Shown in pieces: positions 27,207 to 58,839 of a stretch of DNA of 64,000 nucleotides. The notes beneath the pieces were generated by a model. The model did no database searches, was not told where the DNA came from, and was given only the letters and a program-made list of their open reading frames with translations. The stretch is from Pseudomonas sp. GD03919 (GTDB taxonomy: Bacteria > Pseudomonadota > Gammaproteobacteria > Pseudomonadales > Pseudomonadaceae): the NCBI RefSeq assembly GCF_029814935.1, contig NZ_CP104582.1, positions 434,001-498,000 of the forward strand. Reading direction: 5' to 3'. The position numbers and the translations under genes were made by a program. Each line of letters begins with the position of its first letter. Position 1 is the first letter of the stretch.

Positions 27207-27592
27207 ATGATGAATACCCTGCCGATCGATTCGCTGCTGCCCGCCCTGCGCGATGCCTTGTCCGCCCGTCACGAAGCCGTGCTGGAGGCGCCGCCCGGCG
27301 CTGGCAAGACCACCCGCGTACCGCTGGCACTGCTGGATGCGCCTTGGCTGGCCGGGCAGAAGATCCTCATGCTTGAGCCGCGCCGGTTGGCCGCTCGTGC
27401 TGCTGCCGAGCGCCTGGCCAGCGAACTGGGTGAGCGGGTTGGCGAGACGGTCGGCTACCGCATTCGCCTGGACAGCAAGGTCGGGCCGAACACGCGCATC
27501 GAGGTGGTCACCGAGGGTATTCTCGCCCGCCGCTTGCAGGACGATCCGGCGCTGGATGGCGTCGGCCTGGTGATATTCGATGAATTTCATGA
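27207..27592 (+). pseudogene. hrpB: HrpB helicase N-terminus, interrupted by the island
   Basis: It starts after CTGTGGAGAA and encodes [39 protein letters not shown] with Walker A, then [16 protein letters not shown], and runs to VIFDEFHE at 27592. The next codons ([10 protein letters not shown]) are unrelated to HrpB and the sequence turns AT-rich, so the helicase is cut within its DExH box. About 128 of some 840 residues remain. The remainder of the host gene should lie beyond the right end of the island, outside this window. The codons for IFDEFHE are themselves AT-rich (ATA, GAT, TTT, CAT), unlike the gene before them. Confidence 0.9.
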
Positions 27593-27597
27593 ATTAC
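27571..27597. other. Candidate island attachment site (left junction)
   Basis: TTCGATGAATTTCATGAATT contains ATGAA-T-TTCAT, an inverted repeat of the kind tyrosine recombinases use as a core. HrpB coding stops matching right after CATGAA. The matching right-hand copy would be past 64000, so the pair of direct repeats cannot be checked here. Confidence 0.55.
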
Positions 27598-27735
27598 TAA
27601 ATGCACGAAAAATCTTAATTCTTGTCAAAAAAAGGGATCTTCATCACGTTTGATGGGCTGGTGATCGCCGCTTGCCCTCACAAGCTCACCATGGTCAACG
27701 TAAAGCAATGTACCAGTGCCCCCATTTGGTCTGAC

Positions 27736-28014
27736 TCAGCTACTTCCTTTATCAGAAAACATCGGATCATTTAACAGCCAGCTGACTAACACCGGATGTA
27801 GAGGTCCATGCTTGTCGGCCAATAGGGAAAGCTCCTGCTTGGATCGCTCTTCCACTCGACCAGCCAACCAGACGGCTTCTGCTGTCGGGTAATGCCGTAG
27901 TAGATTTTTTGCTTGGTACCGTATGCTTTCAGGAAGGCTCGTGTCCCTAGCCAGCTCCTGTAGGAAGTCCCGTGTTTGAACAACGCTACGGGTGCGTTCA
28001 TGGGCCATCGTCAT
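27736..28014 (-). CDS. BPSL0761-family protein
   Basis: A 92-residue protein: MTMAHERTRSVVQTRDFLQELARDTSLPESIRYQAKNLLRHYPTAEAVWLAG. It matches small conserved proteins annotated as the BPSL0761 family in Burkholderia and Pseudomonas, of unknown function and often found in accessory regions. It is the first gene inside the island, about 140 bp from the junction. Downstream (27593-27735) is AT-rich at first and holds no gene. Confidence 0.75.
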   Translation of the reverse strand: MTMAHERTRSVVQTRDFLQELARDTSLPESIRYQAKNLLRHYPTAEAVWLAGRVEERSKQELSLLADKHGPLHPVLVSWLLNDPMFSDKGSS

Positions 28015-28148
28015 GGTATTGCTCCTGAAATGTCCGCAGGGGGAGACGGCTTCCCGTCAACATATTCCACGCCCTAGGGGAACACTTACGGTATCAAGCT
28101 TGATTTCCCTGGATAATTGCACAGCCCTGGAAGCGTGGCCTATCAATG

Positions 28149-29432
28149 TCATTCGCCTTGCGCATCAGAAATGCGCTCGCGGAGCCTGTTCCAGTGTGGC
28201 TTGAGCTGCTTCTTGATCGAGGGGGCGTTCATGGCTCTGGCTGCCCGGTAGCCATAAGAAATGAAGTTCCTTCGGCCCAGGTAGGAGTACCGCTTATACA
28301 GCTTCTTCAGGAACATCGAGCGAGGCAACTGCCCTCTGGCAATTCGCTTGGCGTTGACCTTGTCCATGCGTTTTCCTGCCAGCCAGATTCCTCTGTTTAC
28401 ACGGTCCTGATAGCGAGCTAGTGACGATGAACGCAGGTAAATGTTGGCCCCATCAAAGATAAAGCCCAGATATTGCAGCGGTCGGTCGGATCTCAACCCC
28501 TTGACTGATCGAGTGAATTTGCAGGCCTCCGTCTTGGCAGTCTGGATCTCCAGGCCTATCTCATTGACGCGTAGGTCGACTAGGGCTTTGGCCTCTGCCT
28601 CTTTCTCCAGTGGCACAATTAGCAGTACGTCATCGCAGTATCGGTAGTAGGAACCACCGTAGGATTGGACATACGCGTGGATCTGCTCATCGAAGCCCAT
28701 CATGTACACGTTGGACAGCAGGGCACTGATAGGGGAGCCTTGGGGGATACCCTTTTTGTCCCTGTTGGTTTCGATCAGGCCGCCATCACGAACCTTGGCT
28801 CTGAATTCATGGGGCTCGCAAATTCGCTTGCGGCCTTGCTTGGGGTTGTTCTTGGAGAGGCCCAGCGCTTCGTAGACTTGATCCCTGTAGACGAACGAAT
28901 ACTTTGTGAGGGATCGAAAAACCGCGTAGTGGTCGTCGGGCAAATGGCTGGTGTCGAGAATCGCCTGCCAGGCATTTTTCAGGTGCGTATGGTCTAGGTT
29001 GTCAAAGAAGCCTTTGATGTCGATGGCTATGACGCAGCAGGACTTTCGCGCCGCGATATCCAGGAACGCATCCCGAGCAAAATCGATATTGCTTTTGCCA
29101 AGGGCTCTGAATGCCAAGATTGCTGAGGCCCACCGCACCTTAGCCAGATGTCCCTCGTAGGCCTGGTTCAGCAGGTCGCAGTAGTACGAATAAATATGGC
29201 TGTCGACGTGTGCGGCGTAGGAGATAGGCCGCTGCTTAGGGTCTTTTTTGACCACTTTCCCAATGCTTTTGTCGAAGAACACTTTCTGTGTTTGCGCGAC
29301 ATAGCGAATGAACGGGTAAAAGGCATGCTTAGCAACAGCCTTAGGACTTGAGACGATCTCCAGCGCTGCTGCCTGGTTTATCGGACGATCAAAGTGCAGA
29401 TAGCCTCGAAACTTGTACCAATTTTCTGGCAT
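28149..29432 (-). CDS. Antiviral-type reverse transcriptase, DRT2-like
   Basis: A 427-residue reverse transcriptase beginning MPENWYKFRGYLHFDRPIN. RT motifs in order: VIAIDIKGFFDNLDH with the first catalytic Asp (about 140), KKGIPQGSPISALLSNVYM (about 225), and RYCDDVLLIV with the YCDD active site (about 264), then LQYLGFIF and a basic thumb. YCDD and the short single-domain length fit defence-associated RTs, most like DRT2 (UG2). They do not fit group II intron RTs, since there is no maturase or endonuclease domain. The ATG after AAGGAT is preferred to an upstream codon. An upstream structured region may encode the template RNA. The subgroup is inferred. Confidence 0.75.
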   Translation of the reverse strand: MPENWYKFRGYLHFDRPINQAAALEIVSSPKAVAKHAFYPFIRYVAQTQKVFFDKSIGKVVKKDPKQRPISYAAHVDSHIYSYYCDLLNQAYEGHLAKVRWASAILAFRALGKSNIDFARDAFLDIAARKSCCVIAIDIKGFFDNLDHTHLKNAWQAILDTSHLPDDHYAVFRSLTKYSFVYRDQVYEALGLSKNNPKQGRKRICEPHEFRAKVRDGGLIETNRDKKGIPQGSPISALLSNVYMMGFDEQIHAYVQSYGGSYYRYCDDVLLIVPLEKEAEAKALVDLRVNEIGLEIQTAKTEACKFTRSVKGLRSDRPLQYLGFIFDGANIYLRSSSLARYQDRVNRGIWLAGKRMDKVNAKRIARGQLPRSMFLKKLYKRYSYLGRRNFISYGYRAARAMNAPSIKKQLKPHWNRLRERISDAQGE

Positions 29433-29580
29433 CAGCGTACATCCTTGTTTCGAGCCAACCGGCCAGGCTTGGGATGGCGGCAATCCTCAAGCCGCCTGGC
29501 CGGATAAACCCAAATGTTCCTCACATTATCCAATCGGTCTCAGTCACCCAGTTCCGATTTCGCCGCGATTGCTAGGATCG
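29433..29580 (-). ncRNA. Candidate structured template RNA of the reverse transcriptase
   Basis: On the minus strand, directly upstream of the RT, is a long hairpin (29461-29501) with arms GGCCAGGC/GCCTGGCC, then TTG/CAA and GGAT/ATCC. A second possible hairpin, AATCGG/CCGATT (near 29531-29558), and a TATACG -10-like box near 29581 lie further up. DRT2 systems encode a template RNA just upstream of the RT, so this is the right place. The boundaries and the role are inference. Confidence 0.4.
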
Positions 29581-29613
29581 ACGTATAGTGTCAGCGTCAC
29601 ATTTGGAGTACCT

Positions 29614-29706
29614 ATGAAGATAAGTATCCGAGGGCTGCTGGCCGCATTGCTGGTCAACCTGGGTTGTTATACCTGGGATGCCGCCTTGGGGCTTGACAGC
29701 TTGTGA
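29614..29706 (+). CDS. Small secreted-peptide-like ORF
   Basis: A 30-codon frame, MKISIRGLLAALLVNLGC then YTWDAALGLDSL, preceded by TTTGGAG. It looks like a short lipoprotein signal peptide with LGC as a possible lipobox. It may be the truncated start of a lost gene. It lies antisense to the region upstream of the reverse transcriptase. A hairpin CTTCGGGT-CTAT-ACCCGAAG (29712-29731) follows directly. Confidence 0.3.
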   Translation: MKISIRGLLAALLVNLGCYTWDAALGLDSL

Positions 29707-30030
29707 TGCACCTTCGGGTCTATACCCGAAGCGCTTGCAGGCTAGCATAAATCTGAGCTGAACAGCCCCCGTCTTTTCGAGAGGCATGACACTCCTTCAG
29801 CTAGGTGTCAGGTGCTCTGAAGTCTCCGTGCAACGGAATAGATGCCACAGCGTTGACGTTGGAAGCGCTCTGCCTTCAAGTATCTGGTAGGTGCCAAAAC
29901 TTCATAGGGGTGGGATAGTTCCCGCTTTTGGCCATTTCTGGCTGTGGCCACCGTCAGCTTCGGATCGGCTCCAGTCACTCGTGACAGGCTGCCACAACCC
30001 TCAGCTGCCAGTGACAACTTCAGATCATCC

Positions 30031-30565
30031 CTAGTGTCGAGAAAGGGCTGAAGCTGCACCGTTACTGGAGTTCGCATTGCCAGGGTTGTGCGCTGAAAGA
30101 GCAGTGCACACCGAGTCCACAGCCACGCCGAGTGAGCCGCTGGGAGCATGAAGCAGTGCTCGAAGCGATGCAGAGTCGTCTGGATCAAGGGCCCGAGATG
30201 ATGCGAATCCGCCGTCAGACGGTCGAGCACCCGTTCGGCACGCTGAAGAGCTGGATGGGTGCCACCCATTTCCTCACCAGAACGCTCGACCGGGTGAGCA
30301 CCGAGATGAGCCTGCATGTGCTCGCCTACAATCTCAAACGCGTGTTGAACGTGCTGGGCAGCGGTGCCCTGATGGCAGCGATGAAGGCCTGAGGCCTGTT
30401 TTACGAGTCTTGCCCCCTCTCAACAGGCGCGCCGAAGCCGGAAGTGCCATAGCAACCAGAATCACCGAATGCGCCTGATTGGGTCTCCGGCGGCCTCCTG
30501 GACGCTGAGAAAATCACCCGGCAGTTGATTGCCATCGCTTGCTGCGTTTTTACACGGTCTGGGCC
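30031..30565 (+). mobile_element. 3' remnant of an IS1182-family element
   Basis: 535 bp almost identical to 51974-52508 of the complete IS in this window (two mismatches seen by eye), including the right terminal repeat ending TACACGGTCTGGGCC. The left two thirds of the element are missing. The preceding stretch 29732-30030 holds no gene I can support. Confidence 0.92.
30032..30392 (+). pseudogene. IS1182-family transposase C-terminus
   Basis: It encodes SVEKGLKLHRYWSSHCQGCALKEQC through TVEHPFGTLKSWMGATHFLTRTL to the end, identical to the last 119 residues of the transposase at 50902-52335 apart from one Leu/Pro change (GALMAAMKA). It has no start and no catalytic core, so it is inactive. 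Confidence 0.92.
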
Positions 30566-30572
30566 GAAAGCA

Positions 30573-30585
30573 GACAGTTAATGTC
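30573..30585. promoter_or_regulatory. Inverted repeat upstream of the PtrA-like gene
   Basis: GACA-N5-TGTC lies about 105 bp before the start at 30691. It resembles the spacing of metal two-component regulator boxes (CopR/CusR type). The match is short, so it is only a candidate. The remaining bases to 30690 show nothing else. Confidence 0.3.
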
Positions 30586-30690
30586 AGCATTGTCATCTGG
30601 CCCTCATGCTCTCGTTATCAGCCGATTCGTACCCTGACTAGAGCACTGCTAAGCAGTGCTTTCATCCGTCAGCGCACACAGGTCGAAGAT

Positions 30691-30894
30691 ATGAAGCTCA
30701 GAATAATCATGCTTTCAGTAGTCATTGGAATGACATCTGCAACTGCCTTCGCGAAGGGCGGCGATGGTTTTAACCGCCCCTCTGAAGCATTTTAGCGATT
30801 CCGCGAGAGCCGAGAAAAAGCCCAGGAAAATAAACAAAAAGCCGAAACTCAATCAAAGACCATCAAGCTCGATGACAAAACCTCAAAGCAATAA
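30691..30894 (+). pseudogene. PtrA-like small periplasmic protein with an in-frame stop
   Basis: MKLRIIMLSVVIGMTSATAFA is a clear signal peptide, followed by KGGDGFNRPSEAF and a TAG at 30793-30795. The same frame then continues as RFRESREKAQENKQKAETQ to TAA at 30892. Read through, it gives a 67-residue charged periplasmic protein like the copper-associated PtrA family. A single amber mutation is the simplest explanation; a 34-residue peptide may still be made. The metal-resistance genes next to it fit. Confidence 0.55.
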
Positions 30895-31053
30895 ACATCT
30901 ACATTAAGGAAGGTTTGAAGTAACCCTGTATTTCCGGTCGACTTCAGCCCTCGCTGCTTTTGAAAGCGGGCCGTCGATCAAAACCGACCAGGTAACCCGC
31001 TCAGTTCTGCGTTTTTGGCCGCCGCGAGCACCTCGCAGCAGCCATTTTCCGCA

Positions 31054-32034
31054 TTACAGGCGTACCTCTCCTGCGGTAGTCAGCAAATGTCGGCGCGCCA
31101 TCCATAGGTTCGACAGCGCGAACAGCGTCACCAGCTGAGCGGTGTTCTTGGCCAGGCCACGGAAGCGCACCTTCACGTAACCGAACTGGCGCTTGATCAC
31201 TCGAAACGGGTGCTCGACCTTCGCTCGCACTTGTGCCTTGGCCTTCTCGATCTTGCGCTTGGCTTTGTACAGGGCGCTGCGTTTATCGAGCTTCTTGTAG
31301 GTGCTGCGGCGTGCTGCGACCTGCCAGATCACTTCGCGGCCAGCATGTTCGGGGCGCTTTTCGACGCCGGTGTAGCCGGCATCGGCGCAGACGACGTTCT
31401 CGTCACCGTGCAGCAGTTTGTCGACCTGGGTGACATCCGCCACGTTTGCCGCCGTGCCGACCACGCTGTGCACCAGCCCCGACTCGTCATCCACACCGAT
31501 GTGGGCCTTCATGCCGAAGTAGTACTGGTTGCCCTTCTTGGTCTGGTGCATCTCCGGGTCGCGCTTGCCGTCCTGGTTCTTGGTCGAACTGGGTGCATGG
31601 ATCAGCGTGGCATCGACGATAGTGCCCTGGCGCAGCGACAGGCCGCGATCCCCCAGGTAGCCATTGATTACGCCGAGGATGCCGGCTGCCAGCTCATGTT
31701 TCTCCAGCAAACGACGGAAGTTGAGGATGGTGGTTTCGTCGGGAATGCGCTCCAGGCTCAGCCCGGCGAACTGACGCAGGATGGTCGTCTCGTAGAGCGC
31801 TTCTTCCATGGCCGGGTCGCTGTAGCCGAACCAGTTCTGCATCAGATGGATACGTAACATGGCCATCAGCGGATAGGCTGGACGACCACCTTAACCCTTT
31901 GGGTAGTGTGGCTCGATCAGGGCAATCAATCCCTTCCACGGCACCACCTGATCCATCTCGATCAGGAACAATTCCTTACGGGTCTGCTTGCGCTTGCCGG
32001 CGTACTCGGCGTCGGCGAAGGTCATCTGCTTCAT
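31054..32034 (-). pseudogene. IS5-family transposase with a nonsense mutation
   Basis: The start MKQMTFADAEYAGKRKQTRKELF is at 32034. The frame reads LIEPHYPKG, then TAA, then GGRPAYPLMAMLRIH, where relatives have YPKG-E-GGRP; a G-to-T change of GAA explains it. After the stop the frame is intact to 31054, with DDE motifs IVDATLIHAPSS, VCADAGYTGVEKRP and KVEHPFRVIKRQFGY. A downstream restart is possible at MAMLRIHLMQNWFGY (31866), but the element is probably inactive. Terminal repeats were not located confidently. The 30895-31053 stretch between this and the PtrA-like gene is otherwise empty. Confidence 0.85.
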
Positions 32035-32281
32035 GGAAGAACTCGGGGGGCGGGATTACCGGCGTATTTCACCAGATTCTGGAAGTGTTTTTCAGAGTGT
32101 CCTTAAAGCCAAAGGCGCCCTCTATGCGCCTTTTTTATTAGTCCTACTTTTGGGAATGCCAACCAGCCTTCGACTCAAAGCATTGTCTACTTAAGACCTT
32201 CAGTTAGAACTCAGAAGCAGCCAATACTTACACCCGCACAAACAAAAAAGCCCTACCTGAAAGGTAGAGATTTTTGCTTAT

Positions 32282-32617
32282 TTACTTCTGATTGCGACAC
32301 TGGCCTTGCGAGATATAGCGAATGGTGTGTAAATCCCCCTGAGAGTCCTCATAGGTCATGAGCTTATTTACGTTTCCACAAAACTTAACAGTCGGCGTAA
32401 TATAAATCAGCTTGGCCACGTCAAGCTTCATGCCGTACTTGTAATCACTCGGCTGGGGAGCCGCCTTCCCAACGCTCTGAGCATAATTCTCAGCCGCCTT
32501 CAGGCTTTTCTCCTCAATCTCTTTTTTGGCGCTCTCGGGAAAAGTTACAGAGTACGCATTAGCACTCTGAAACACGAACAGTGCAGAAAGAACAGCAAGT
32601 ACTTTAATGGATTTCAT
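32282..32617 (-). CDS. DUF2790 periplasmic protein
   Basis: A 111-residue protein with a signal peptide (MKSIKVLAVLSALFVFQSANA) and the DUF2790 core YKYGMKLDVAKLIYITPTVKFCGNVNKLMTYEDSQGDLHTIRYISQGQC. The two cysteines probably form a disulfide. Proteins of this family are common in Pseudomonas next to copper-responsive genes, and their function is unknown. A perfect short palindrome lies 64-80 bp upstream. Confidence 0.85.
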   Translation of the reverse strand: MKSIKVLAVLSALFVFQSANAYSVTFPESAKKEIEEKSLKAAENYAQSVGKAAPQPSDYKYGMKLDVAKLIYITPTVKFCGNVNKLMTYEDSQGDLHTIRYISQGQCRNQK

Positions 32618-32680
32618 GGTGCCATCTCCTCGTCAGAATTTACGCAATATTAGCCTTGCAGCACTTACCAGAAGATTGCT

Positions 32681-32697
32681 CGCAAATTACATTTGCG
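32681..32697. promoter_or_regulatory. Palindrome upstream of the DUF2790 gene
   Basis: CGCAAAT-TAC-ATTTGCG is a perfect 7-bp inverted repeat with a 3-bp spacer in the promoter zone of the DUF2790 gene. It also lies just past the terminator of the oprD transcript. It is a candidate metal-regulator site. Confidence 0.4.
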
Positions 32698-32707
32698 ACA
32701 TTAACTC

Positions 32708-32735
32708 AAAAAAAAGGCGCTCATTTCTGAGCGCC
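32708..32735 (-). terminator. Intrinsic terminator downstream of oprD
   Basis: Read on the minus strand: GGCGCTCA-GAAA-TGAGCGCC followed by eight T. It ends transcripts coming from the oprD-like gene. A second GC hairpin (GAGCGCC/GGGCGCTC, near 32906-32932) lies closer to the oprD stop. The 32736-32940 interval between them has no gene. Confidence 0.85.
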
Positions 32736-32940
32736 CAGGATTCACCTCTTCCAAAGGAGCACTAGGCTTCAAAGGTGAATTAGGTAAGACTCCGGACTCC
32801 GCCAAGAGCTAATCAGAGTCGTGTTCGAAAACACTTAGCCAACGACCTAATGTAACTTGCCGCAACTAACAGGAACATGATTGAAAGATTACAAATTTGA
32901 CACTATGAGCGCCCGAGAATCAGGCGCTCACAAATAAGCG

Positions 32941-34263
32941 TTAAAGCACGCTCAGGGGGTACTCGACGATCAGGCGGAACTCGTCCAGATCTGACTCAAA
33001 TTGAGTTGCTCGAGTATTAGCTTGTCGAATGCGGAAGGACATGTCCTTGAGCGAGCCTGTCTGCACCACGTATTTGGCCTCGATGTCCCGCTCCCAACGC
33101 TTTTGATCGACCAGCGGATTACCATCCGCGTCGCGACGCATATAGACGTCGTTGGCGTTGGAGTAATCAGCGTCGGTGCCTTTACCGTAACGAGCCATGA
33201 ACGAGAGACCAGGGATGCCGTATGCCTGCATGTTCAGGTCGTAGCGGACCATCCAAGAACGCTCTTTCGGCGAGTTGAAGTCGGTGTACTGGATGGAGTT
33301 GTCGAGGTAGATCGAGTCCGCTTGGCGCAGATAGTCGAAGTCGTCATCACCGTTGTTGCGCTGGTGCGACAGGGTGACCGTGTGGGCACCAAACTGTACG
33401 CCGACCTTAGCGCTCCAGATGTTGTTGTTCAGCTCGCCCAGCAGCTGCTTCCCTTCATCCTGAACGTTGTAGTAGTTGAAGCCGGTGATCAGGGAAACGT
33501 CTTCGGTGAGGGGCTGGGTCAGAGAAGCACCGAAGTAGTACTGATCCCATGCGTCCTTCAAGCGTGCGCTGTATGCACTGACTTGAAGGTTTTCGTTGAC
33601 GCTGTAATCACCCCCGAAGTAGCCGACCCATGGCGAGTCAACAGGACCCGCATAGAAGGTGGCGAACTTGTCACGCATGTCGCTGGACACCGGCTGACTC
33701 ATAGCGTGGAGACGACCACCCTGCAGAGTGAGTCCATTTACGCTGCTGTTCTCTAGGGTAATACCCCGGAAGGATTCAGGTAGCAGGCGAGAGTCGCCAT
33801 AGTGAACGACGGGAGTAGTTGGAAACACGTCGCCGACTTTAAGGACAGTATCGAAAGCTCGTGCCTTCAGCGCCCCGCCGACCTTGGAGTACTCATCACG
33901 TGCCTCGCCATTGCTATCGACGGGAAGCACATCGAATGTGCTGCGACCACCATTTCGGCCACCACCGGTGTCCAACTTGAGCCCGAGCATTGCAAATGCA
34001 TCAACGCCCACCCCAACAGTCCCGCGAGTGAAGCCAGACTCAAACTGGCCAATGATGCCGTGTGCCCAGGTTTCAGAGTAACCGGCACCGCCAGCACCGC
34101 TCTCGCCGTTACGGTTATCTCGATTGAAGTAGAAATTGCGGTTAAGGATGTTCAGGCTGCTGCCTTCGATGAAGCCCTCGCGCTGCTCTTCAGCATTCGC
34201 GAGAGGGCTGATACCTGCCAGTGCTGCGAGGACGGCAAGCGACAGCTTGGTCTTTGAATTCAT
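32941..34263 (-). CDS. OprD-family outer-membrane porin
   Basis: A 440-residue protein with a signal peptide (MNSKTKLSLAVLAALAGISPLANA) and the OprD barrel opening REGFIEGSSLNILNRNFYFNRD, GYSETWAHGIIGQFESGFTRGTVGVGVDAFAMLGLKLDTG. Internal SWMVRYDLNMQAYGIPGLSFMARYGKG is also typical. OprD porins carry amino acids, small organic acids and sometimes metal chelates. In Pseudomonas, oprD genes are controlled by metal two-component systems, so its place beside czc-type efflux may reflect shared regulation. Confidence 0.93.
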   Translation of the reverse strand: MNSKTKLSLAVLAALAGISPLANAEEQREGFIEGSSLNILNRNFYFNRDNRNGESGAGGAGYSETWAHGIIGQFESGFTRGTVGVGVDAFAMLGLKLDTGGGRNGGRSTFDVLPVDSNGEARDEYSKVGGALKARAFDTVLKVGDVFPTTPVVHYGDSRLLPESFRGITLENSSVNGLTLQGGRLHAMSQPVSSDMRDKFATFYAGPVDSPWVGYFGGDYSVNENLQVSAYSARLKDAWDQYYFGASLTQPLTEDVSLITGFNYYNVQDEGKQLLGELNNNIWSAKVGVQFGAHTVTLSHQRNNGDDDFDYLRQADSIYLDNSIQYTDFNSPKERSWMVRYDLNMQAYGIPGLSFMARYGKGTDADYSNANDVYMRRDADGNPLVDQKRWERDIEAKYVVQTGSLKDMSFRIRQANTRATQFESDLDEFRLIVEYPLSVL

Positions 34264-34430: not shown

Positions 34431-34451
34431 GTTTCAAGGAACTGCAGTTGA

Positions 34452-50828: not shown

Positions 50829-52508
50829 GGCCCAGGCTGTGTAAAAACGTTGGCATCGACCTTGCTGTGATTTGATGGATTCGAAATCAGCGGGGGCGCC
50901 AATGAAGCGTTTTATCCAGGGAGAGCATCGAGGGCAAAGCGCGCTGCTTCCCGAGAGCCTGGATGACTACGTGGCGGACACTAACCCGGTGCGGGTGGTT
51001 GATGTGTTCGTCGATGAACTCGACCTTAGCCAACTGGGTTTCGAGGGTGTCGTCCCGGCGGAAAGCGGCAGACCCGCCTACCATCCTGCCGACCTGCTGA
51101 AGATCTACATCTACGGCTACCTCAATCGCATCCAATCCAGTCGCCGCCTTGAGCGAGAGACCCAGCGCAACGTCGAGCTGATGTGGCTGACCGGGCGCTT
51201 GATGCCGGACTTCAAGACCATCGCCAACTTCCGCAAGGACAACGGCAAGGCAATCCGCGGCGTATGTCGGCAGTTCGTGGTGCTGTGCCAGCAGCTTGGC
51301 CTGTTCTCTGAGGCGCTGGTAGCCATCGATGGCAGCAAGTTCAAGGCGGTCAACAACCGCGACCGCAATTTCACCAGCGCCAAGCTTCAGCGGCGAATGG
51401 AGGAGATCGAGTCCAGCATCAACCGTTACCTGACCGCACTAGATGCCGCTGACCGCCAGGAACCTGCCGTAGCGCAGGTCAAAGCAGAACGCCTCCACCA
51501 CAAGATCGCAACGCTGAAAGCCAAGATGCAGGAGCTCAAGGAAATCGAGGTACAGCTCAACGAAACACCGGACAAACAGATCTCCCTGACCGATCCCGAT
51601 GCCCGCTCAATGAAGACGCGGGGCAGCGGCATGGTCGGCTACAACGTGCAGGCGGCGGTCGACACAAAGCACCACCTGATCGTGACGCATGAGGTCACGA
51701 ACGACGGAGTCGATCGCGATCAACTGAGCGCCATGGCCAAGCAAGCGCGAGAGGCCATGGGTGTTGAGAAGCTCTCGGCGGTCGCAGACAGAGGGTATTT
51801 CAAAGGCGAAGAAATCCTGGCGTGCCATGAGGCTGGGATCACCGTTTTCGTGCCCAAGACGCTGACCTCGGGAGCGACAGCGGCTGGCCGCTTCGGCAAA
51901 GGTGATTTCATCTATGACCCAGTAAAGAACGAGTACCTATGCCCGGCTGGGCAAAGCCTGATCTGGCGTTTTTCTAGTGTAGAGAAAGGGCTGAAGCTGC
52001 ACCGTTACTGGAGTTCGCATTGCCAGGGTTGTGCGCTGAAAGAGCAGTGCACACCGAGTCCACAGCCACGCCGAGTGAGCCGCTGGGAGCATGAAGCAGT
52101 GCTCGAAGCGATGCAGAGTCGTCTGGATCAAGGGCCCGAGATGATGCGAATCCGCCGTCAGACGGTCGAGCACCCGTTCGGCACGCTGAAGAGCTGGATG
52201 GGTGCCACCCATTTCCTCACCAGAACGCTCGACCGGGTGAGCACCGAGATGAGCCTGCATGTGCTCGCCTACAATCTCAAACGCGTGTTGAACGTGCTGG
52301 GCAGCGGTGCCCCGATGGCAGCGATGAAGGCCTGAGGCCTGTTTTACGAGTCTTGCCCCCTCTCAACAGGCGCGCCGAAGCCGGAAGTGCCATAGCAACC
52401 AGAATCACCGAATGCGCCTGATTGGGTCTCCGGCGGCCTCCTGGACGCTGAGAAAATCACCCGGCAGTTGATTGCCATCGCTTGCTGCGTTTTTACACGG
52501 TCTGGGCC
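50829..52508 (+). mobile_element. IS1182-family insertion sequence, complete
   Basis: 1680 bp with imperfect terminal inverted repeats: GGCCCAGGCTGTGTAAAAAC at the left and CGTTTTTACACGGTCTGGGC at the right. It contains one intact transposase. No clear target duplication is seen. The right flank is a GGAAGCGG/CCGCTTCC hairpin (52509-52538), the kind of palindromic site this family favours. Confidence 0.9.
50902..52335 (+). CDS. IS1182-family transposase
   Basis: A 477-residue DDE transposase beginning MKRFIQGEHRGQSALLPESLDDYVADTNPVRVVDVFVDEL. Catalytic positions are ALVAIDGSKFKAVNNRDRNF (first Asp, about 140), LSAVADRGYFKGEEI (second Asp) and the Glu in RIRRQTVEHPFGTLKSWMG. No frameshift or stop is present, so it may be active. 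An upstream ATG at 50875 is an alternative start. Confidence 0.93.
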   Translation: MKRFIQGEHRGQSALLPESLDDYVADTNPVRVVDVFVDELDLSQLGFEGVVPAESGRPAYHPADLLKIYIYGYLNRIQSSRRLERETQRNVELMWLTGRLMPDFKTIANFRKDNGKAIRGVCRQFVVLCQQLGLFSEALVAIDGSKFKAVNNRDRNFTSAKLQRRMEEIESSINRYLTALDAADRQEPAVAQVKAERLHHKIATLKAKMQELKEIEVQLNETPDKQISLTDPDARSMKTRGSGMVGYNVQAAVDTKHHLIVTHEVTNDGVDRDQLSAMAKQAREAMGVEKLSAVADRGYFKGEEILACHEAGITVFVPKTLTSGATAAGRFGKGDFIYDPVKNEYLCPAGQSLIWRFSSVEKGLKLHRYWSSHCQGCALKEQCTPSPQPRRVSRWEHEAVLEAMQSRLDQGPEMMRIRRQTVEHPFGTLKSWMGATHFLTRTLDRVSTEMSLHVLAYNLKRVLNVLGSGAPMAAMKA

Positions 52509-52660
52509 GGAAGCGGTCGCTCGTGGGAGGCCGCTTCCGGCAAGAAGCGGATATTTGGGGACTGCTCCGGATTAACCCCTGCGCCGACGGATTTTCATGA
52601 TTGCAGAGTGCTAGTATCCGTGCGCAGGTTTTGAAGCTAGGTGAACGCGAGGGATAGCAT

Positions 52661-53284
52661 TTGCAAGAGCATGAATATTCAGTCATAGGCCATAGCAGAA
52701 GCACTATTGGTCGCTACCTAGGCATGCTTGCCACCGTAGTCGTCTCCCTTCTTCCAGCCGTAGGTATCGGGCTGTCAGAGGCACTAGCCTCAGTCGGCCT
52801 TCCTGATTGGGGGAAGTACTTCCTTGTCATTCCTATCACCGCTGGCGTGATCTATACGGGCATCCACTGGTGCTTCAATAAATTCGCCTGGCGTCCCCTG
52901 AGCTACCTCTCGCAGATTCCACATATAGCGGGCCAGTGGGACTGCGAAGGAAAGACCTACGCCGATGACGGGAGTATTGCCCAGCACTGGGTAGCTGAAC
53001 TGAGCATTTCTCAGACATGGGAAAAGATTCGAGTCCGACTCGAAACCAAGTCATCCATATCACACAGTATTTCTGTTGCCCTCATCCCAGAGGCCGATGG
53101 TTGCTGGATGCTGATGTACAGCTACATGAATCAGCCCAAGGTCGGGAACCTCAACCTCCATGCCCATAAGGGCTACGCCGAAATGAGGTTCACCAAAGGC
53201 TTGAAAGCCGCGAAAGGCGAGTACTTCACGGCGAAAAGCCGTGGCACGGTTGGGGCAATGGAATTCACTAGGAGAGAAGAATGA
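52661..53284 (+). CDS. cap15: Cap15-like CBASS effector (two TM segments plus beta-barrel)
   Basis: A 207-residue protein. Two membrane segments (about residues 20-42 and 48-66) precede a C-terminal beta-barrel domain with HIAGQWDCEGKTY, SQTWEKIRVRLETKSSISHSI and YAEMRFTKGLKAAKGEYFTAKSRGTVG. This architecture is that of Cap15, a CBASS effector that oligomerises on cyclic-nucleotide binding and disrupts the inner membrane. The start is TTG, with GAGGGA 7 bases upstream; the first ATG (52724) would cut into the first membrane segment. It overlaps the CD-NTase gene by 4 bases. Confidence 0.82.
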   Translation: MQEHEYSVIGHSRSTIGRYLGMLATVVVSLLPAVGIGLSEALASVGLPDWGKYFLVIPITAGVIYTGIHWCFNKFAWRPLSYLSQIPHIAGQWDCEGKTYADDGSIAQHWVAELSISQTWEKIRVRLETKSSISHSISVALIPEADGCWMLMYSYMNQPKVGNLNLHAHKGYAEMRFTKGLKAAKGEYFTAKSRGTVGAMEFTRREE

Positions 53285-54369
53285 GCAAGGATGTAAAACG
53301 CCGGCTTTCCGATCTGAAGGCGCGGCGGCAAGGCAGTTTCATAGCGATGGACAGCCTTGTTGAAAACAGTGTGAGCATGGAAAGCTTTGAGGCCCGCTCG
53401 ACCGGTGAGTGGGCGAAATACACGCTCGGAATCATGCAGGAAGTCGATCCCAAATATACGGCAACCTCAATCGCTGAAGGCGAGCGCGTAAAGAATCAAA
53501 TCAAGAACAGAATCAGTACCTCCGTATCGTTCGAGTATCAAGGCTCCGTCCCACTCAACGTGCATATCCGTGGCGCTAGCGACATCGACATCCTGGTTCT
53601 GCTAAGTGGCTACCTGACCTATGACACCAATGGAGTAGGTGCTTCGGGATATCTCCCCTGGACTGGCCTCAGTGGTGTCGACCAGCTCGCATATCTCCGT
53701 ATGGAGCTGGAGGATGGGCTAGAAGTCGCGTTCCCTGAAGCAGACGTGGATACTGCAGGCGATAAAGCCATCGGGCTTTCAGGCGGCAGCCTCAAGCGAA
53801 AAGTTGATGTGGTCCCGTCGTATTGGAACGACTCTGCAACGTACCAAGCGAGTAAGAATAAGAAGGACCGAGAGGTTTGTATTTTCCAAAAGCAGAGCCG
53901 TACGACCTTCAAAAACCGACCATTCCTCCACATCGACAAAGTGAGCGAGAAAGATCGCCGCTGCAATGGAGGGGCGAAGAAGATCATCCGCATGCTCAAG
54001 AACTTGAAAGCGGACTGTGACAACCCCTCCTCGATTGCTGTGAATAGCTACGAGATCGCGGGGCTCGTGTATCACTTCGAAGATCTGCCAATCAGTCTGC
54101 CCGTTTATCGTGAGCTGGCCTTAGTCGCGGTGACCCGGCAGCAGCTAGATCGGATGATCAATAACAAACAGTGGACGATGGGGCTCAGCACTCCAGATGG
54201 CATCCGAAAGATTATCGACTCCGAGGCGAAATTCGACTCCCTGAGACTGCTTCGCGCTGAGGTCAATGAGCTAGCTAAAAATCTCGCCATCGAGCTCACG
54301 CGTGAGATCTGGGTCAGCGACCACGATGCAATTCGTGCACTGAACGAGTCCTATGTTTCTGAGCGCTAA
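53281..54369 (+). CDS. CBASS CD-NTase (cGAS/DncV-like nucleotidyltransferase)
   Basis: A 362-residue enzyme. The nucleotidyltransferase core has SVSFEYQGSVPLNVHIRGASDIDILVL (GS at about 88-89, catalytic D101 and D103) and the third Asp in KRKVDVVPSYW (about 176). Downstream NGGAKKIIRMLKNLKADC and SYEIAGLVYHF are typical of the helical half. It makes a cyclic oligonucleotide upon phage infection. With only the Cap15-like effector beside it, this is a minimal type I CBASS without ubiquitin-like or HORMA/TRIP13 accessory genes. The product and clade (CdnB or CdnE) cannot be told. Confidence 0.85.
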   Translation: MSKDVKRRLSDLKARRQGSFIAMDSLVENSVSMESFEARSTGEWAKYTLGIMQEVDPKYTATSIAEGERVKNQIKNRISTSVSFEYQGSVPLNVHIRGASDIDILVLLSGYLTYDTNGVGASGYLPWTGLSGVDQLAYLRMELEDGLEVAFPEADVDTAGDKAIGLSGGSLKRKVDVVPSYWNDSATYQASKNKKDREVCIFQKQSRTTFKNRPFLHIDKVSEKDRRCNGGAKKIIRMLKNLKADCDNPSSIAVNSYEIAGLVYHFEDLPISLPVYRELALVAVTRQQLDRMINNKQWTMGLSTPDGIRKIIDSEAKFDSLRLLRAEVNELAKNLAIELTREIWVSDHDAIRALNESYVSER

Positions 54370-54468
54370 CTGAAAGAGCCCAGCTAAATCTGAGCAAGAG
54401 CTGAGATTGCAGTGGCCAAGCGGTCTGGCCGCTTGCAATCACACTAGGAGTTCAGTTCTCGGCATAGA

Positions 54469-54497
54469 AAAAGCCCGCCTTTCAGGGGCGGGCTTTT
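54469..54497 (+). terminator. Intrinsic terminator of the CBASS operon
   Basis: AAAAGCCCGCC-TTTCAGG-GGCGGGCTTTT, a strong stem with A and T tracts on both sides, about 100 bp after the CD-NTase stop. It could work in both directions. The remaining gap to 54620 contains nothing recognisable. Confidence 0.9.
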
Positions 54498-54620
54498 CAG
54501 GTGTCTCCAAGGGGAGGCTAGGGCTGACGATGAGTTCGGCCTTGTGCAGCGGAGCGAGTTCTGGAAAGACAACTAAGCTCGGTTCAGATGGGACTATGGA
54601 TACGGGCAGGATATGGGACG

Positions 54621-55067
54621 TTAGCCTCGCAGATGTGATGCAGCAGAGAAGATCACGTGGTTACTAATTCGACTGCCGAGTGACTGACTCGCTGAGGTTG
54701 AGTACGTGCGATCTCCCTCCACTCGGTACTGGTGCCCAAGCTCGCTACCTTGTGCATCACGAATTGAAAGAACCTCCAGTAACGGCTCCATCAACCAGCG
54801 ACCAACCTCGTTCGTATGCCCAGGACTCACAAGATACGCCTGCTCCAGCCAGGCGTGCTCAGTCTGCGCAGCTATGACCTGTTCCAGCAATGGAACCGAG
54901 GGAACCATTAGCATGCTTCGAAAGGCCTGGTTTCCATCGTCCTCAACGATCTGCAAGTAGAACCAGGGCCAGGTCATCTCTAGCTCGACATATGACCAGA
55001 ACTGCACGCCATCTGGCGCTGTTGAGAGCCCAGGAAGCAGTTCCGCATTCCGACTGGTTTTGAACAC
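54621..55067 (-). CDS. Unknown protein divergent from an XRE regulator
   Basis: About 148 residues, with no family recognised: VFKTSRNAELLPGLSTAPDGVQFWSYVELEMTWPWFYLQIVEDDGNQAFRSMLMV, then EVGRWLMEPLLEVLSIRDAQGSE. The composition is soluble and protein-like. The start is uncertain: GTG at 55067 has AGGA upstream; TTG at 55109 gives a longer form but lies inside the inverted repeat. The convergent end lies 124 bp past the CBASS terminator. Divergent arrangement with an XRE repressor across a perfect operator suggests a regulated pair, perhaps linked to defence. Confidence 0.6.
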   Translation of the reverse strand: MFKTSRNAELLPGLSTAPDGVQFWSYVELEMTWPWFYLQIVEDDGNQAFRSMLMVPSVPLLEQVIAAQTEHAWLEQAYLVSPGHTNEVGRWLMEPLLEVLSIRDAQGSELGHQYRVEGDRTYSTSASQSLGSRISNHVIFSAASHLRG

Positions 55068-55102
55068 GAGGCAATTTCCTAATGAGAATTTTGCTTGATT
55101 GA

Positions 55103-55135
55103 TGAACAATATATTTTGTAGTCATATATTGTTCA
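55103..55135. promoter_or_regulatory. Perfect 12-bp inverted repeat, candidate XRE operator
   Basis: TGAACAATATAT (55103-55114) and ATATATTGTTCA (55124-55135) are exact complements separated by 9 bp. The site lies between the divergent unknown gene and the XRE gene, about 37 bp upstream of the latter, and would cover both promoters. Confidence 0.75.
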
Positions 55136-55171
55136 ATCGCGCTTCATCGTCCCATTTTGCGGAGCAGCAAA

Positions 55172-55462
55172 ATGGAAGTCCGGGATTCGTTCGGGAAGGC
55201 GTTGAGGTTCGTGCGACAGCGTAGGGGGCTGACACAGGAAGATTTCTCACTCGTTAGCAGTCGTACCTTCGTAAGCATGCTGGAGCGCGGGGCAACGAGC
55301 CCGACTCTCGAAAAGCTCGATAGCCTCTGCACGGTGCTCGACATTCATCCGGTCACCCTCTTGGCCCTGACCTACTTGCTTGGATCCGAAGCTCCTGAAA
55401 GTTTTGAGCAGCTCTTGGAGAAGGTTGGTGAGGAATTGAGAGATCTAGTCGAACCTGACTGA
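55172..55462 (+). CDS. XRE-family transcriptional regulator
   Basis: A 96-residue protein with a Cro/CI helix-turn-helix at residues 7-60: FGKALRFVRQRRGLTQEDFSLVSSRTFVSMLERGATSPTLEKLDSLCTVLDIHPVTLL. The short acidic C-terminal helix may dimerise. GGAG 7 bases before the ATG sets the start. It probably represses itself and the divergent gene through the inverted repeat at 55103-55135. Confidence 0.88.
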   Translation: MEVRDSFGKALRFVRQRRGLTQEDFSLVSSRTFVSMLERGATSPTLEKLDSLCTVLDIHPVTLLALTYLLGSEAPESFEQLLEKVGEELRDLVEPD

Positions 55463-55566
55463 TTGCTCAGCGGGGCTGTGTGAGGAGGCGGTTCCGTGAC
55501 CGCACAGTGAGTGTTGACCTTGCTGTCCCTCTGTGTTGTTGGCGCTGATGGAAAATTGGGGGTCAT

Positions 55567-56151
55567 ATGTCCGTCGCGCAAGCAATTTTGAATCGAGTCA
55601 AGCACATGCCAAAGGGGAGACCCTTTGTCGGCGCGGTGTTCGCGCAGGTTGGTTCCCGTGCGTCGATTAATAAAGCGCTTTCTAGACTGGTGCAATCAGG
55701 CACGCTGGAGCGAGTGGCTCGCGGTGTCTACATGCGCCCTAAAACGAGCAAGTACACCGGTAGGGTGGTGCGCCCGAGTCCGCTGGCTGTCATGGAGGTC
55801 ATCACGAAGGCGAACGGCGAGACGATCCAGATACACGGCGCGGAGGCTGTTCGGCGGTTGGGCCTCAGCACACAGATGCAGGTGTTGCCGACCTTTTACA
55901 CCAGCGGATCTACTCGCGAGATCAAGGTTGGCAATGCGGTGGTTCGCCTCCGTCACGTATCCAAGGACCGCTTGCAGCACGCCGGCACGACGGTAGGTGT
56001 GGCGCTTACTGCTCTCTACTACATCGGGAAAGAAGGGCTGTCCGCTAATGTGGTTGCCAAGATTGTTAGTGCGCTGAGCGGCGAAGAGCTGATGAAGCTA
56101 AGGGCCTGCAAGATGCCGAGATGGATGCGATCGTCATTGAGCCTTGTGTGA
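55567..56151 (+). CDS. DUF6088 (AbiEi-antitoxin-like) protein
   Basis: A 194-residue protein starting SVAQAILNRVKHMPKGRPFVGAVFAQVGSRASINKALSRLVQSGTLERVARGVYMRPK, a winged-helix like the AbiEi antitoxin N-terminus, followed by ETIQIHGAEAVRRLGLSTQMQVLPTFYTSGSTREIKVG. In AbiE systems the next gene is a nucleotidyltransferase toxin; none follows here. It is therefore an orphan regulator or a broken type IV toxin-antitoxin pair. After it, 56152-56316 is non-coding and contains an 11-C run (56225-56235). Confidence 0.75.
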   Translation: MSVAQAILNRVKHMPKGRPFVGAVFAQVGSRASINKALSRLVQSGTLERVARGVYMRPKTSKYTGRVVRPSPLAVMEVITKANGETIQIHGAEAVRRLGLSTQMQVLPTFYTSGSTREIKVGNAVVRLRHVSKDRLQHAGTTVGVALTALYYIGKEGLSANVVAKIVSALSGEELMKLRACKMPRWMRSSLSLV

Positions 56152-56316
56152 GCGTACGTGGATGCGTCTTGCGTACTGGATCACTTGGCCTCGATGGTGG
56201 TGATGTGTGTGGCGATTCAATCAGCCCCCCCCCCCAGCATTTCACAAGAGAGGAGCCATTCGCTCTGATATGCGTGATCATCTCTGTCAGTCCTCCTTGT
56301 GCACTGTAGAATTAGT

Positions 56317-58839
56317 ATGAGCTTTCTCTCTATCGACGTTGCTCTGCCTGCCCTTCGCTCAGCATTGGCAGAGCGAAATGAAGCTGTTCTTGAAGCTCCT
56401 CCAGGAGCGGGTAAGACAACCCGAGTTCCCCTCGCGCTATTGAATGAGACATGGCTTGGAACCCAAACCATCTTGATGCTCGAGCCGAGGCGTCTTGCTG
56501 CTCGAGCTGCGGCTGAGCGTCTAGCTAGCGAATTGGGTGAGAGAGTAGGTGAAACCATCGGGTACCGGATTCGCTTGGAAAGCAAAGTCGGTCCGAAAAC
56601 CCGAGTTGAAGTCGTCACCGAGGGCATCCTGTCCCGTCGTTTACAAGAGGACCCCGCCCTCGACGGCGTTGGGATTGTCATCTTCGATGAATACCATCTT
56701 CGTACGCTTGACGCAGATTTAGCCTTGGCACTTTGTCTAAACGGCCGTGAGCTTCTTAGGGACGAAAGCCAACCACTTAAGATCCTTCTGATGTCTGCAA
56801 CGCTTGAGGGGAATCGTCTTTCTAAGCTCCTGAACGACGCTCCAATAGTGAAGAGTGACGGCCGTATGTTTCCGGTCACCACGTATTGGGGGAGACCTCA
56901 TCAATTCGGTGAGATCGTCGAGCAGCGCGTGATTCAGGTCTGTCTGCAGGCCCTATCTGAACAAAGCGGGAGCATCCTTGTGTTCCTTCCTGGTCAGGCT
57001 GAAATACGCCGGGTTAACGAGCAGTTGAAAACTCAACTGAAGGACCAAGATAACATTATGCTTTGTCCGCTCCATGGCGAACTTGACCTGTCGTCCCAGC
57101 GAGCAGCTATCGAACCCGCGCCACAAGGCAAACGCAAAGTAGTGCTTGCCACCAACATAGCCGAAACGAGCTTAACCATCGACGGCGTTCGCGTCGTAGT
57201 GGACGCTGGACTAGCACGCGTGCCGCGTTTTGACCCTGTCAGTGGTATGACTCGCCTGGATACGCAACGTGTTTCTCGAGCGGCAGCTACGCAACGTGCT
57301 GGCCGCGCAGGACGCCTAGAACCAGGTGTTTGCTATCGACTCTGGTCGGAATCGCAACATGACCAGCTTGCAGCATACGACGCTGCCGAAATTTTGCAGG
57401 CAGATCTATCTGGACTCGCGCTGCAGCTAGCACGATGGGGTGTGCAGCCTGACGATTTGGCTTGGTTAGATTCGCCTCCTGTAGCAGCTTATGCGCAAGC
57501 TCGTGATCTACTCACCCGGCTAGGAGCATTAGATGAGCGTGGTGTTATTACTGCCCATGGCCAAGCGATGGCTGAGTTACCTGCACATCCTCGAATCGCG
57601 CATCTGTTACTCCGTGGCCAGGCATTCGGGCTCGGTAACCTCGCCTGTAACATAGCGGCGCTGCTTGGAGAAAAGGATATCCTCCGCGGTAACGGCGCTG
57701 ACCTTCATGATCGTCTTAGCGTATTGGGTAATGAAGCGTCCTCACGCGCCAGTCGAGGGGCTGTTCAACGAGCCCGTCAGCTAGCGAGGCAGTTCAGGGG
57801 ATACCTACGCGGTCCGGTATCTGAACCTGTGGCAGACCCTGATCATCCACGGTGGCAAGGGGGGCTCCTGGCCTTCGCTTATCCAGATCGAGTGGCACGT
57901 CAGCGACGCGATGGTGGAGCCGAATACCGATTGGCAAATGGTCGTGCCGCACAGTTTGGCGAGCCTGACGCACTGATGAAAGAGCCTTGGCTAGTCATTG
58001 CAGACCTTGGGAGCAGACAATGTCAGAGAGAGGAGCGCATCTACATTGCCGCAGCACTTGATCCCCAGCTATTCGACACTCTGCTTGCCGAGCAGGTAAG
58101 CCAGCGTGATGAACTCGAGTGGGACGAACGCGAGGGTGTATTGAAAGCCGAGCGGCAGCAGCGTGTGGGCGAGTTGGTATTGAGTCGAGCTGCCATTCCT
58201 GGGCTTGATGAAGAGGCTCGTTCTCAGGCATTGGTCGGGCTCGTACGTCGCAAGGGCATGGCGCTGCTACCGTGGACACCGGAACTTCGTCAGTGGCAGG
58301 CACGAGTGTCTCTTCTTCGTGATCTGGATCTCGAGCAAAAGGGTGAAAGTGAGTGGCCTGATCTGTCAGATAGCGCACTCCAGAGCTCACTTGAAGTGTG
58401 GCTGGGGCCATACCTGGGCAAAGTTAGCCGACTCAGTCATTTCGATAACTTGGATCTCTCAAGCATCCTCCTTGGGTTGCTGCCTTGGCCGTTACCTGCA
58501 CGCCTCGATGAGCTAGCCCCCAAAGCGCTGCAGGTGCCATCTGGCTCGCGCATTGCCATTGATTACTCAGAACATCCTCCCGTGCTTGCCGTTAGGCTAC
58601 AGGAGCTGTTTGGCATGGCTGACACTCCTCGTGTAGCAGGGGGCCGACAGGGGGTGCTACTGCATCTACTTTCTCCAGCTCGCAGACCCGTACAGGTTAC
58701 TCAAGATCTCGCCAGCTTTTGGGCCAATACCTACATTGAAGTAAAGAAAGATCTAAAGGGTCGATACCCCAAGCACTGGTGGCCTGATAACCCTATGGAG
58801 GCAGAGCCAACCGCTAGGAGTAAGCCTAGAAAGCAATGA
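56317..58839 (+). CDS. hrpB: Island-borne full-length HrpB ATP-dependent helicase
   Basis: An 840-residue DEAH-box helicase. Walker [15 protein letters not shown], a DEYH box (FDEYHLRTLDADLALAL) in place of the usual DEFHERSLD, ILLMSATLEGNRL, then ATNIAETSLTIDGVR and QRAGRAGRLEPGVCYRLW, followed by the HrpB-specific C-terminal part to GRYPKHWWPDNP. Over the first 118 residues it differs at about 19 positions from the interrupted host copy at 27207-27592. Codon use is less GC-rich than the host copy. It lies just inside the recombinase operon and convergent to it. It probably replaces the disrupted host function. Confidence 0.93.
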   Translation: MSFLSIDVALPALRSALAERNEAVLEAPPGAGKTTRVPLALLNETWLGTQTILMLEPRRLAARAAAERLASELGERVGETIGYRIRLESKVGPKTRVEVVTEGILSRRLQEDPALDGVGIVIFDEYHLRTLDADLALALCLNGRELLRDESQPLKILLMSATLEGNRLSKLLNDAPIVKSDGRMFPVTTYWGRPHQFGEIVEQRVIQVCLQALSEQSGSILVFLPGQAEIRRVNEQLKTQLKDQDNIMLCPLHGELDLSSQRAAIEPAPQGKRKVVLATNIAETSLTIDGVRVVVDAGLARVPRFDPVSGMTRLDTQRVSRAAATQRAGRAGRLEPGVCYRLWSESQHDQLAAYDAAEILQADLSGLALQLARWGVQPDDLAWLDSPPVAAYAQARDLLTRLGALDERGVITAHGQAMAELPAHPRIAHLLLRGQAFGLGNLACNIAALLGEKDILRGNGADLHDRLSVLGNEASSRASRGAVQRARQLARQFRGYLRGPVSEPVADPDHPRWQGGLLAFAYPDRVARQRRDGGAEYRLANGRAAQFGEPDALMKEPWLVIADLGSRQCQREERIYIAAALDPQLFDTLLAEQVSQRDELEWDEREGVLKAERQQRVGELVLSRAAIPGLDEEARSQALVGLVRRKGMALLPWTPELRQWQARVSLLRDLDLEQKGESEWPDLSDSALQSSLEVWLGPYLGKVSRLSHFDNLDLSSILLGLLPWPLPARLDELAPKALQVPSGSRIAIDYSEHPPVLAVRLQELFGMADTPRVAGGRQGVLLHLLSPARRPVQVTQDLASFWANTYIEVKKDLKGRYPKHWWPDNPMEAEPTARSKPRKQ

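Follow-up and report, generated by a model that had tools for sequence, protein, structure and literature searches.

How can a mobile element afford to land inside a conserved protein-coding gene? The question is raised by a stretch of 64,000 nucleotides from Pseudomonas sp. GD03919 (the window; genome positions 434001–498000 of one 4.66 Mb contig, Pseudomonas group), in which hrpB is interrupted by island DNA, here called island A, and a second, complete hrpB lies within that island. The gene meant is the one for the DExH-box RNA helicase and not the type III secretion regulator sharing its name. Taking the evidence together, we are fairly confident that island A is a tyrosine-recombinase island which inserts at the hrpB codon after the DExH box and brings a complete hrpB changed at the target, so that the cell keeps HrpB. 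The features that this reading concerns first are listed here.

25785..27081, minus strand: native left flank, a fieF-type cation efflux gene and the next conserved gene (tblastn with the P. aeruginosa hrpB neighbours, 71% and 63% identity)
27207..27592, plus strand: 5′ part of native hrpB, cut inside codon 127, the Glu after the DEFH box (TIGR01970; colinearity with G255)
27593..64000, no strand: island A as visible in the window (G255 empty-site comparison; GC content)
27593..27640, plus strand: left end of island A, which repeats the right end imperfectly in inverted orientation (by eye, junction listing of 20 islands)
56299..58839, plus strand: complete island-borne hrpB (copy A), alignable from 56320 (TIGR01970 1181 bits, cut-off 546)
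56698..56700, plus strand: codon 127 of copy A, CTT (Leu) where native genes have GAG or GAA (Glu) (codon alignment; position computed from residue numbering)

Native hrpB and its interruption

The segment at 27207–27592 codes for HrpB residues 1 to 128–129 and then departs from the gene (NCBIfam TIGR01970, E 1e-66). It lies in the native location, after fieF and a second conserved neighbour. An empty site is provided by G255, a genome of the same species with an intact hrpB, which aligns across both sides of the island at ~96%. Its left junction falls at window position 27592, inside the Glu codon following DEFH (96.2% identity over 11.8 kb), which is where a preliminary description of the window had placed the cut, and the right side aligns at 95.9% over 2.1 kb. 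The 3′ part of the host gene, predicted in the same description to lie to the right of the recombinase genes, was found there, just beyond the window, at genome positions 499378–501470 (window coordinate ~65378) and carries a frameshift. Island A ends at genome position 499377, 1377 bases beyond the window, abutting this 3′ part, and measures 37.8 kb in total; its GC content is 54.5%, against 64.8% for window positions 1–27000. The insertion is site-specific and has an empty counterpart in the same species.

The final native codons pick up again only at genome position 567375, since the gene is interrupted once more, at codon 818, by a second island, B. In this genome, native hrpB is thus broken into three pieces, and each island contributes one complete copy, that of island B lying at genome positions 507502–510015. 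No intact native hrpB was detected elsewhere in the 4.66 Mb single-contig genome, the remaining matches being hrpA-like. That the fragment at 27207 is a mobile remnant, with an intact native gene elsewhere, is excluded by its native flanks and by the same-species empty site, and the preliminary description had been right to treat it as the host gene.

Copy A was correctly recognised at the outset as a complete hrpB beside the recombinase operon: the two stop codons are 58 bp apart. The difference in codon style that had been remarked upon is also real, with a GC content at third codon positions (GC3) of 77.5% in the native 5′ fragment and 49.3% in the island copy. The two proteins do differ, although the count is 24 of 127 aligned residues rather than about 19 of 118. 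These differences, and the placement of the copy in a different part of the hrpB tree, exclude a recent duplication, as had been proposed. An 8.56-kb block with hrpB and three of the recombinase-operon genes (A2–A4, below) is 99.5% identical in another species, Pseudomonas ceruminis BML-PP028; in a Pseudomonas metagenome-assembled genome the hrpB block is 96.8% identical and the native 3′ hrpB part only 75.1%.

Recurrence at codon 127 and the change of the target codon

The operon at the end of island A reads inwards and comprises four genes of 767, 718, 201 and 473 codons.

62987..64000, minus strand: A1, 767 aa, C-terminal part in the window, the gene continuing to genome position 499290 (open reading frame in L011:987-3290)
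60928..63084, minus strand: A2, 718 aa, large tyrosine-recombinase-like protein (alignment; no Pfam match)
60315..60920, minus strand: A3, 201 aa, small operon protein (no Pfam match; conserved beside A2 and A4)
58897..60318, minus strand: A4, 473 aa, tyrosine recombinase (Pfam Phage_integrase; match to XerA/XerD in the PDB, E 1e-12)

In alignments from which several rows with in-frame stops were omitted, the catalytic R-H-R-H-Y residues of A4 are conserved or nearly so in 11 relatives, and R472, H591, R594, H619 and Y628 of A2 are invariant in eight. The Pfam search gave no match for A1 or A3. A1 adjoins the native 3′ part of hrpB in relatives too. The A recombinases aimed at hrpB do not form one clade, in a tree made uncertain by long branches.

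Using A2 as the query, matches were obtained in 42 of 398 genomes of the genus Pseudomonas; in an order-wide sample of 390 genomes, E 1e-60 was reached only by the window's own genome. Native hrpB is split at codon 127 in 20 of the 42 A2-bearing genomes (G000, G055, G064, G085, G115, G131, G143, G165, G169, G215, G217, G235, G243, G245, G256, G282, G359, G383, G387, G394), and all 20 have a second hrpB, frameshifted in G359. Among the A2-bearing genomes with an unsplit gene (22 in all), 1 of the 21 searched has a second hrpB; G361, with a weak A2 match, was excluded from this search. The exception, G063, has it beside the A operon and away from the intact native gene. The association between split and second hrpB is strong (Fisher p 8e-11, ignoring relatedness). 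In an independent Pseudomonas sample, 7 of 149 genomes are split at codon 127. Splits of hrpB in G034, G038, G080, G123, G148 and G286 lie at places other than codon 127 and look like frameshifts or contig breaks. In a sample of 293 genomes from across the order, an hrpB match at E 1e-100 was found in 178, with more than one only in the window's genome. Insertion at this codon is therefore seen repeatedly in further species, each time with an island that holds a second hrpB, and this bears out the initial idea of an element which lands in a conserved gene and carries the lost gene along as cargo. An imperfect inverted motif is common to the ends of the 20 A islands, with a short variable spacer on the operon side (by eye).

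The crossover codon itself distinguishes island copies from native ones. The native HrpB box reads DEFH-E-RSLDADL, and Glu127 is present in all 25 native rows of the alignment, in three further hosts of tail-type B islands (see below), and in 7/7 distant HrpBs from Alphaproteobacteria, Gammaproteobacteria, Bacteroidota and Actinomycetota. Residue 127 of the 33 island copies aligned (23 from A, 10 from B) is Leu in 30, Ser in two and Ile in one. The frameshifted copy of G359, omitted from the alignments, has Leu as well, so that none of the 34 chromosomal island copies has Glu at this residue. The 25 native rows share 466 invariant columns, of which 120 are invariant in the distant rows as well; column 127 is the only one of the 466 that all 33 island copies have left. 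Loss of the otherwise conserved Glu127 from the cargo copies is thereby shown.

Four genomes (G026, G142, G091 and G037; L044, L045, L046 and L047) have a sole hrpB at the native left flank that falls in the island-copy clade and carries Leu127. Since these genes group with island copies, they were set aside from the 25 native rows and re-added in a second ranking. They may be cases in which the rescue allele replaced the native gene, or these lineages may be its source. A native/island mosaic was considered for G026; identities over the first 125 residues were indecisive.

The same four species give some ground for attributing Leu127 to ancestry, that is, to an unsampled Pseudomonas lineage which gave rise to the island copies, and not to a response to the integrase. 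The B-borne copies, which share the change though B does not use the codon-127 site, are also consistent with such an ancestry. We nevertheless consider it unlikely. When the site columns are left out of the tree, residue 127 changes state four times, Leu, Ser and Ile all occur, and the Ser copy of G243 nests among native copies (SH-aLRT, the Shimodaira–Hasegawa-like approximate likelihood ratio test, 98). A single clade of all non-Glu copies was rejected by the approximately unbiased (AU) test (p 0.0035), for a group named only after a tree had been seen. The presence of Glu in HrpBs from as far as Bacteroidota and Actinomycetota likewise speaks against Leu127 as an inherited lineage trait.

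Island B at codon 818 and the origin of the cargo genes

Island B is unrelated to A. It begins with a four-gene operon (496, 636, 683 and 142 aa), followed by a complete hrpB. Since the native tail resumes only at genome position 567375, the island measures 66 kb, and a compact element consisting of recombinases and hrpB alone was rejected on the same ground. B1 is a Phage_integrase by Pfam; catalytic residues are present in B1 and B3, the first catalytic Arg is absent from B2, and B4 is the 142-residue protein. Comparison of B3 with solved recombinases gave no match, and setting the B2 and B3 profiles against A4 produced no usable result. The island B of G270 is 98–100% identical per gene to the one here.

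B-type recombinases occur in 27 of the 398 Pseudomonas genomes, and every hrpB-located B island enters after the Lys of GRYPK (codon 818). Two kinds of island are seen at this point. In 15 genomes (G004, G030, G031, G032, G046, G047, G096, G139, G143, G196, G231, G333, G344, G383, G388) the island end supplies a conserved in-frame tail, LFHKLDPWV[ED]SLN, of which G096 has a variant cut by a contig end. The 13 codons of the tail vary at six places, five of them only synonymously, in the 14 genomes compared (G096 left out because of the contig end). In 10 others (G000, G045, G053, G056, G082, G217, G227, G270, G278, G288) the tail is short or unconserved. A complete B-borne hrpB is present in all 10 of the latter and in none of the 15 tail-type islands (Fisher p 3e-7, ignoring relatedness); G143 and G383 have one within island A. 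Eight of the 10 gene-type islands belong to one recombinase clade and have hrpB after the operon. The remaining two, in G082 and G288, are placed among tail-type islands and have hrpB before the operon, giving three changes on the B tree and indicating that the whole-gene solution arose more than once. As part of the explanation favoured here, and with the confidence that we place in that explanation as a whole, there are probably two solutions to landing at codon 818: some B islands replace the C-terminal tail, and others bring a complete hrpB.

Two further proposals about B were discarded. Separate B sites at codons 818 and 826 are not needed, because the C-termini, once read, reveal a single site followed by either of two sorts of tail. 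A recoded B site was also considered, since most B-borne copies are different at residue 820 and at the Arg codon. We make no such claim, as there is variation among native copies, and in base composition, as well. In G116 (upstream of L147:7587), a B island nearly identical to the hrpB-located one of G388 occupies a non-hrpB site with the same end tail. In G082 (L027:12838-12842), the displaced native hrpB before B is frameshifted by a small lesion that coincides exactly with the A target site and may be the scar of a past A island.

Where the cargo hrpB sits within the islands bears on how it was acquired. The copy is co-oriented with the native gene in all 20 A islands and all 10 B islands. 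In 8 of the 20 A islands it lies ≤~0.35 kb from the native 5′ part. It adjoins the operon in others, at 58–103 bp in G000, G394 and G235 and at 1.5 kb in G243, and is found elsewhere in the rest. Mapped on the tree of A recombinases, the position of the copy changes seven times. The cargo tree mixes copies from A with copies from B (five changes, against a shuffled mean of 5.7). From the position changes and this intermingling, we conclude that hrpB copies were gained or exchanged repeatedly. On the P. aeruginosa megaplasmid pPA1609-475, an A operon and hrpB are found ~37 kb apart within a ter gene cluster, making this plasmid a possible vehicle.

The cargo gene could instead be a hitchhiker: an imprecise excision would have picked up hrpB by accident from the adjoining chromosome, and the gene would contribute nothing to the success of the island. 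Capture would be easy, since the target gene adjoins the island ends, and the eight copies close to the 5′ fragment fit such an origin. We judge it improbable, given that the copy is always complete and co-oriented, is found in A at no fewer than three locations and in B at two, with the seven changes of position in A just described, is recoded at the target codon and, in B, is strictly tied to whether the tail is restored.

We likewise give little credence to the proposal that island hrpB encodes an RNA helicase of altered function which is selected for itself, and that hitting the native gene removes a competitor. A comparable suggestion has been made by the authors describing a recA island of Vibrio cholerae, who proposed that disruption of the native gene avoids interference between two versions (PMC4405046). 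An advantage of this kind is at odds with the lack of enrichment of island hrpB away from the hrpB site, where only G063 among the 21 unsplit A2-bearing genomes, plus the plasmid, has one, and with the tail-type B islands, which keep the native gene.

The favoured explanation weighed against known systems

In the explanation that we favour, the recombinases of island A would recognise the DNA encoding the DExH box and the neighbouring Glu, a stretch that the host can hardly change. Insertion would destroy native hrpB, and the island's own hrpB, presumed to be expressed and functional, would maintain the function; the insertion would then be neutral to the host. The change that the island hrpB carries at the crossover codon, codon 127, is predicted to block integration, so that this copy would not itself be a target. 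Loss of that copy would cost the cell and so stabilise the island. For B islands, whose site is close to the end of the gene, supplying a new tail is an alternative. If correct, this would explain the reliance of the element on a target sequence that hosts cannot easily mutate, and why unrelated islands share one target gene.

A wider reading, on which we are evenly divided, is that the system is a natural case of break and rescue. The recoded hrpB would be immune to its own island and to rival islands of the same specificity, and the host would depend on the island. Such systems would have several origins (A and two B lineages, with at least three losses of Glu127), rescue alleles would have moved from one unrelated island to another, and there may be species whose sole hrpB is now the rescue allele. 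A housekeeping gene replaceable across species by island-borne versions would, in that event, confuse trees and annotation.

The ratio of nonsynonymous to synonymous substitution rates (dN/dS) among island copies is 0.05–0.13 in seven of eight pairs and 0.28 in the remaining one, the closest, where there are only 11 changes; copy A gives 0.13 against the copy in another host. These ratios show the predicted cargo genes to be under purifying selection. Low dN/dS was rejected as proof of function.

Besides the late choice of the group for the AU test, several observations weigh against the favoured explanation. The orphaned native 3′ parts of hrpB also have low dN/dS (0.02–0.12), and since they are as low as the island copies, the latter are not set apart by this measure. 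The island copy of G359 is frameshifted. With the four single Leu127 copies included among the native rows, residue 47 comes first of 823 columns, residue 127 second and residue 129, also in the target, third. The hrpB copy of plasmid pPA1609-475 keeps Glu127 (0 of 1 plasmid copies changed), and the B-borne copies have the change without use of the site by B. G450, from another family of the same order, is split at codon 127 and no second full hrpB was found in it, in a draft that is 86% complete; the split adjoins a distant A1 relative at L155:1-660 (23% identity, E 2e-11). HrpB was deleted in Xanthomonas citri without loss of viability and with biofilm and adhesion defects (PMC4804567). HrpB is therefore useful rather than essential there, and rescue may matter only for fitness.

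A-family islands in other genes also weigh on this side. The targets of other A relatives are a YifB/comM-type gene, YggL, an antiporter and a sugar-ABC ATPase (named by Pfam and NCBIfam), and no replacement copy was found in the 5–80 kb fetched, a partial negative because the far ends of those islands were not located. The generalisation that every A-family island brings its target gene was dropped, there being no second target copy in the DNA fetched for G286, G151, G311, G050, G005 and G386. The A-type relative in G286 (L075:5785-6738) is inserted in the YifB/comM-type gene at the LFLDEL (Walker B) codons, and in G101 (L074:6177-6248) a 24-residue identical remnant lies beside the A operon.

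The closest precedent is the recA mobile element (RME) of V. cholerae S24, an island in recA with its own divergent recA, functional in E. coli, whose authors state the rescue idea (PMC4405046). Like the RME, island A has a fixed site inside a conserved gene (the same codon in 20 Pseudomonas genomes, with an empty site) and a complete, divergent copy of the target gene (20 of 20, one frameshifted). The RME has the gene copy at one end, the integrase at the other and inverted repeats at its ends. It differs in being one island in one strain and in recA; in the available text of that paper, there is no comparison with islands restoring the gene otherwise, and no change of the target codon is reported. 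What is known, then, is an island with its own target gene (recA); what is unusual here is the recoded target codon together with the tail-or-gene alternative.

In make-up, island B resembles the GInts (ginABCD islands, PMC5385486), judging by analogy with their published description: three tyrosine-recombinase-type genes and a small last gene lie at one end, followed by cargo, insertion is site-specific near a gene end, and one of the three recombinases (here B2) is without the first catalytic Arg. GInts differ in how, according to the part of that report available, insertion is tolerated, namely by insertion at the gene end, altered C-termini or an outward promoter and not by a carried copy of the target. 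By eye, island A appears to share imperfect inverted ends and a short variable spacer at one end with the strand-biased circularizing integrative elements (SEs, PMC10214605), compared here by description. The SE gene order intA-tfp-intB-srap is not that of island A (large, large, small, ordinary), and the variable spacer is at the operon end in A and at the far end in SEs. The SE border has a 6-bp spacer with imperfect inverted ends; those of A were judged by eye in the 20-island listing. tRNA-gene phages and islands that restore the gene end (PMC4383910) also have insertion made harmless by element sequence, and tail-type B acts likewise on a protein gene; A and gene-type B differ in carrying a whole protein gene and not only the piece beyond the crossover.

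A further parallel comes from engineering. Cleave-and-Rescue and home-and-rescue gene drives disrupt a gene and supply a recoded copy that the enzyme no longer recognises (PMC7951863, PMC7968924). Alteration of the rescue copy at the target site is found in 34/34 chromosomal island copies and in 0/1 plasmid copy. The engineered drives are nucleases in insects, unlike the natural recombinases in bacteria considered here. If the change at codon 127 blocks integration, the cargo hrpB would be a natural recoded rescue allele, the design chosen by gene-drive engineers. More generally, the hrpB islands offer a comparative test of how a mobile element affords landing in a conserved protein gene, with tail versus whole gene as built-in controls. 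Islands in P. aeruginosa hrpB have been mentioned in one sentence with four citations (PMC8373256, in the text available), and "hrpB" is absent from the main text of two of the four works cited there. Among the matches listed in full-text searches of open-licence papers, none described islands that carry hrpB, or a carried gene altered at the target of its own island.

The remaining annotated cargo of island A is as follows.

28149..29483, minus strand: Drt2 anti-phage-type reverse transcriptase (PADLOC Drt2, 661 bits; Pfam RVT_1)
32941..44166, no strand: OprD porin, outer-membrane efflux protein, resistance-nodulation-division (RND) pump, membrane fusion protein, response regulator, sensor kinase and major facilitator superfamily (MFS) transporter (Pfam)
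52661..54369, plus strand: pair resembling a cyclic-oligonucleotide-based anti-phage signalling system (CBASS), Cap15-type effector and oligonucleotide cyclase (Pfam Cap15; PADLOC cyclase, 426 bits)
55567..56151, plus strand: AbiEi-type antitoxin gene (PADLOC AbiEi, 188 bits)

Three anti-phage-type loci are thus present in island A: Drt2, the CBASS-like Cap15/cyclase pair and AbiEi. Outside the island, the comparison with G255 revealed a tandem-repeat-like stretch at window positions ~14750–16670, with many shifted self-matches at a 61-bp spacing.

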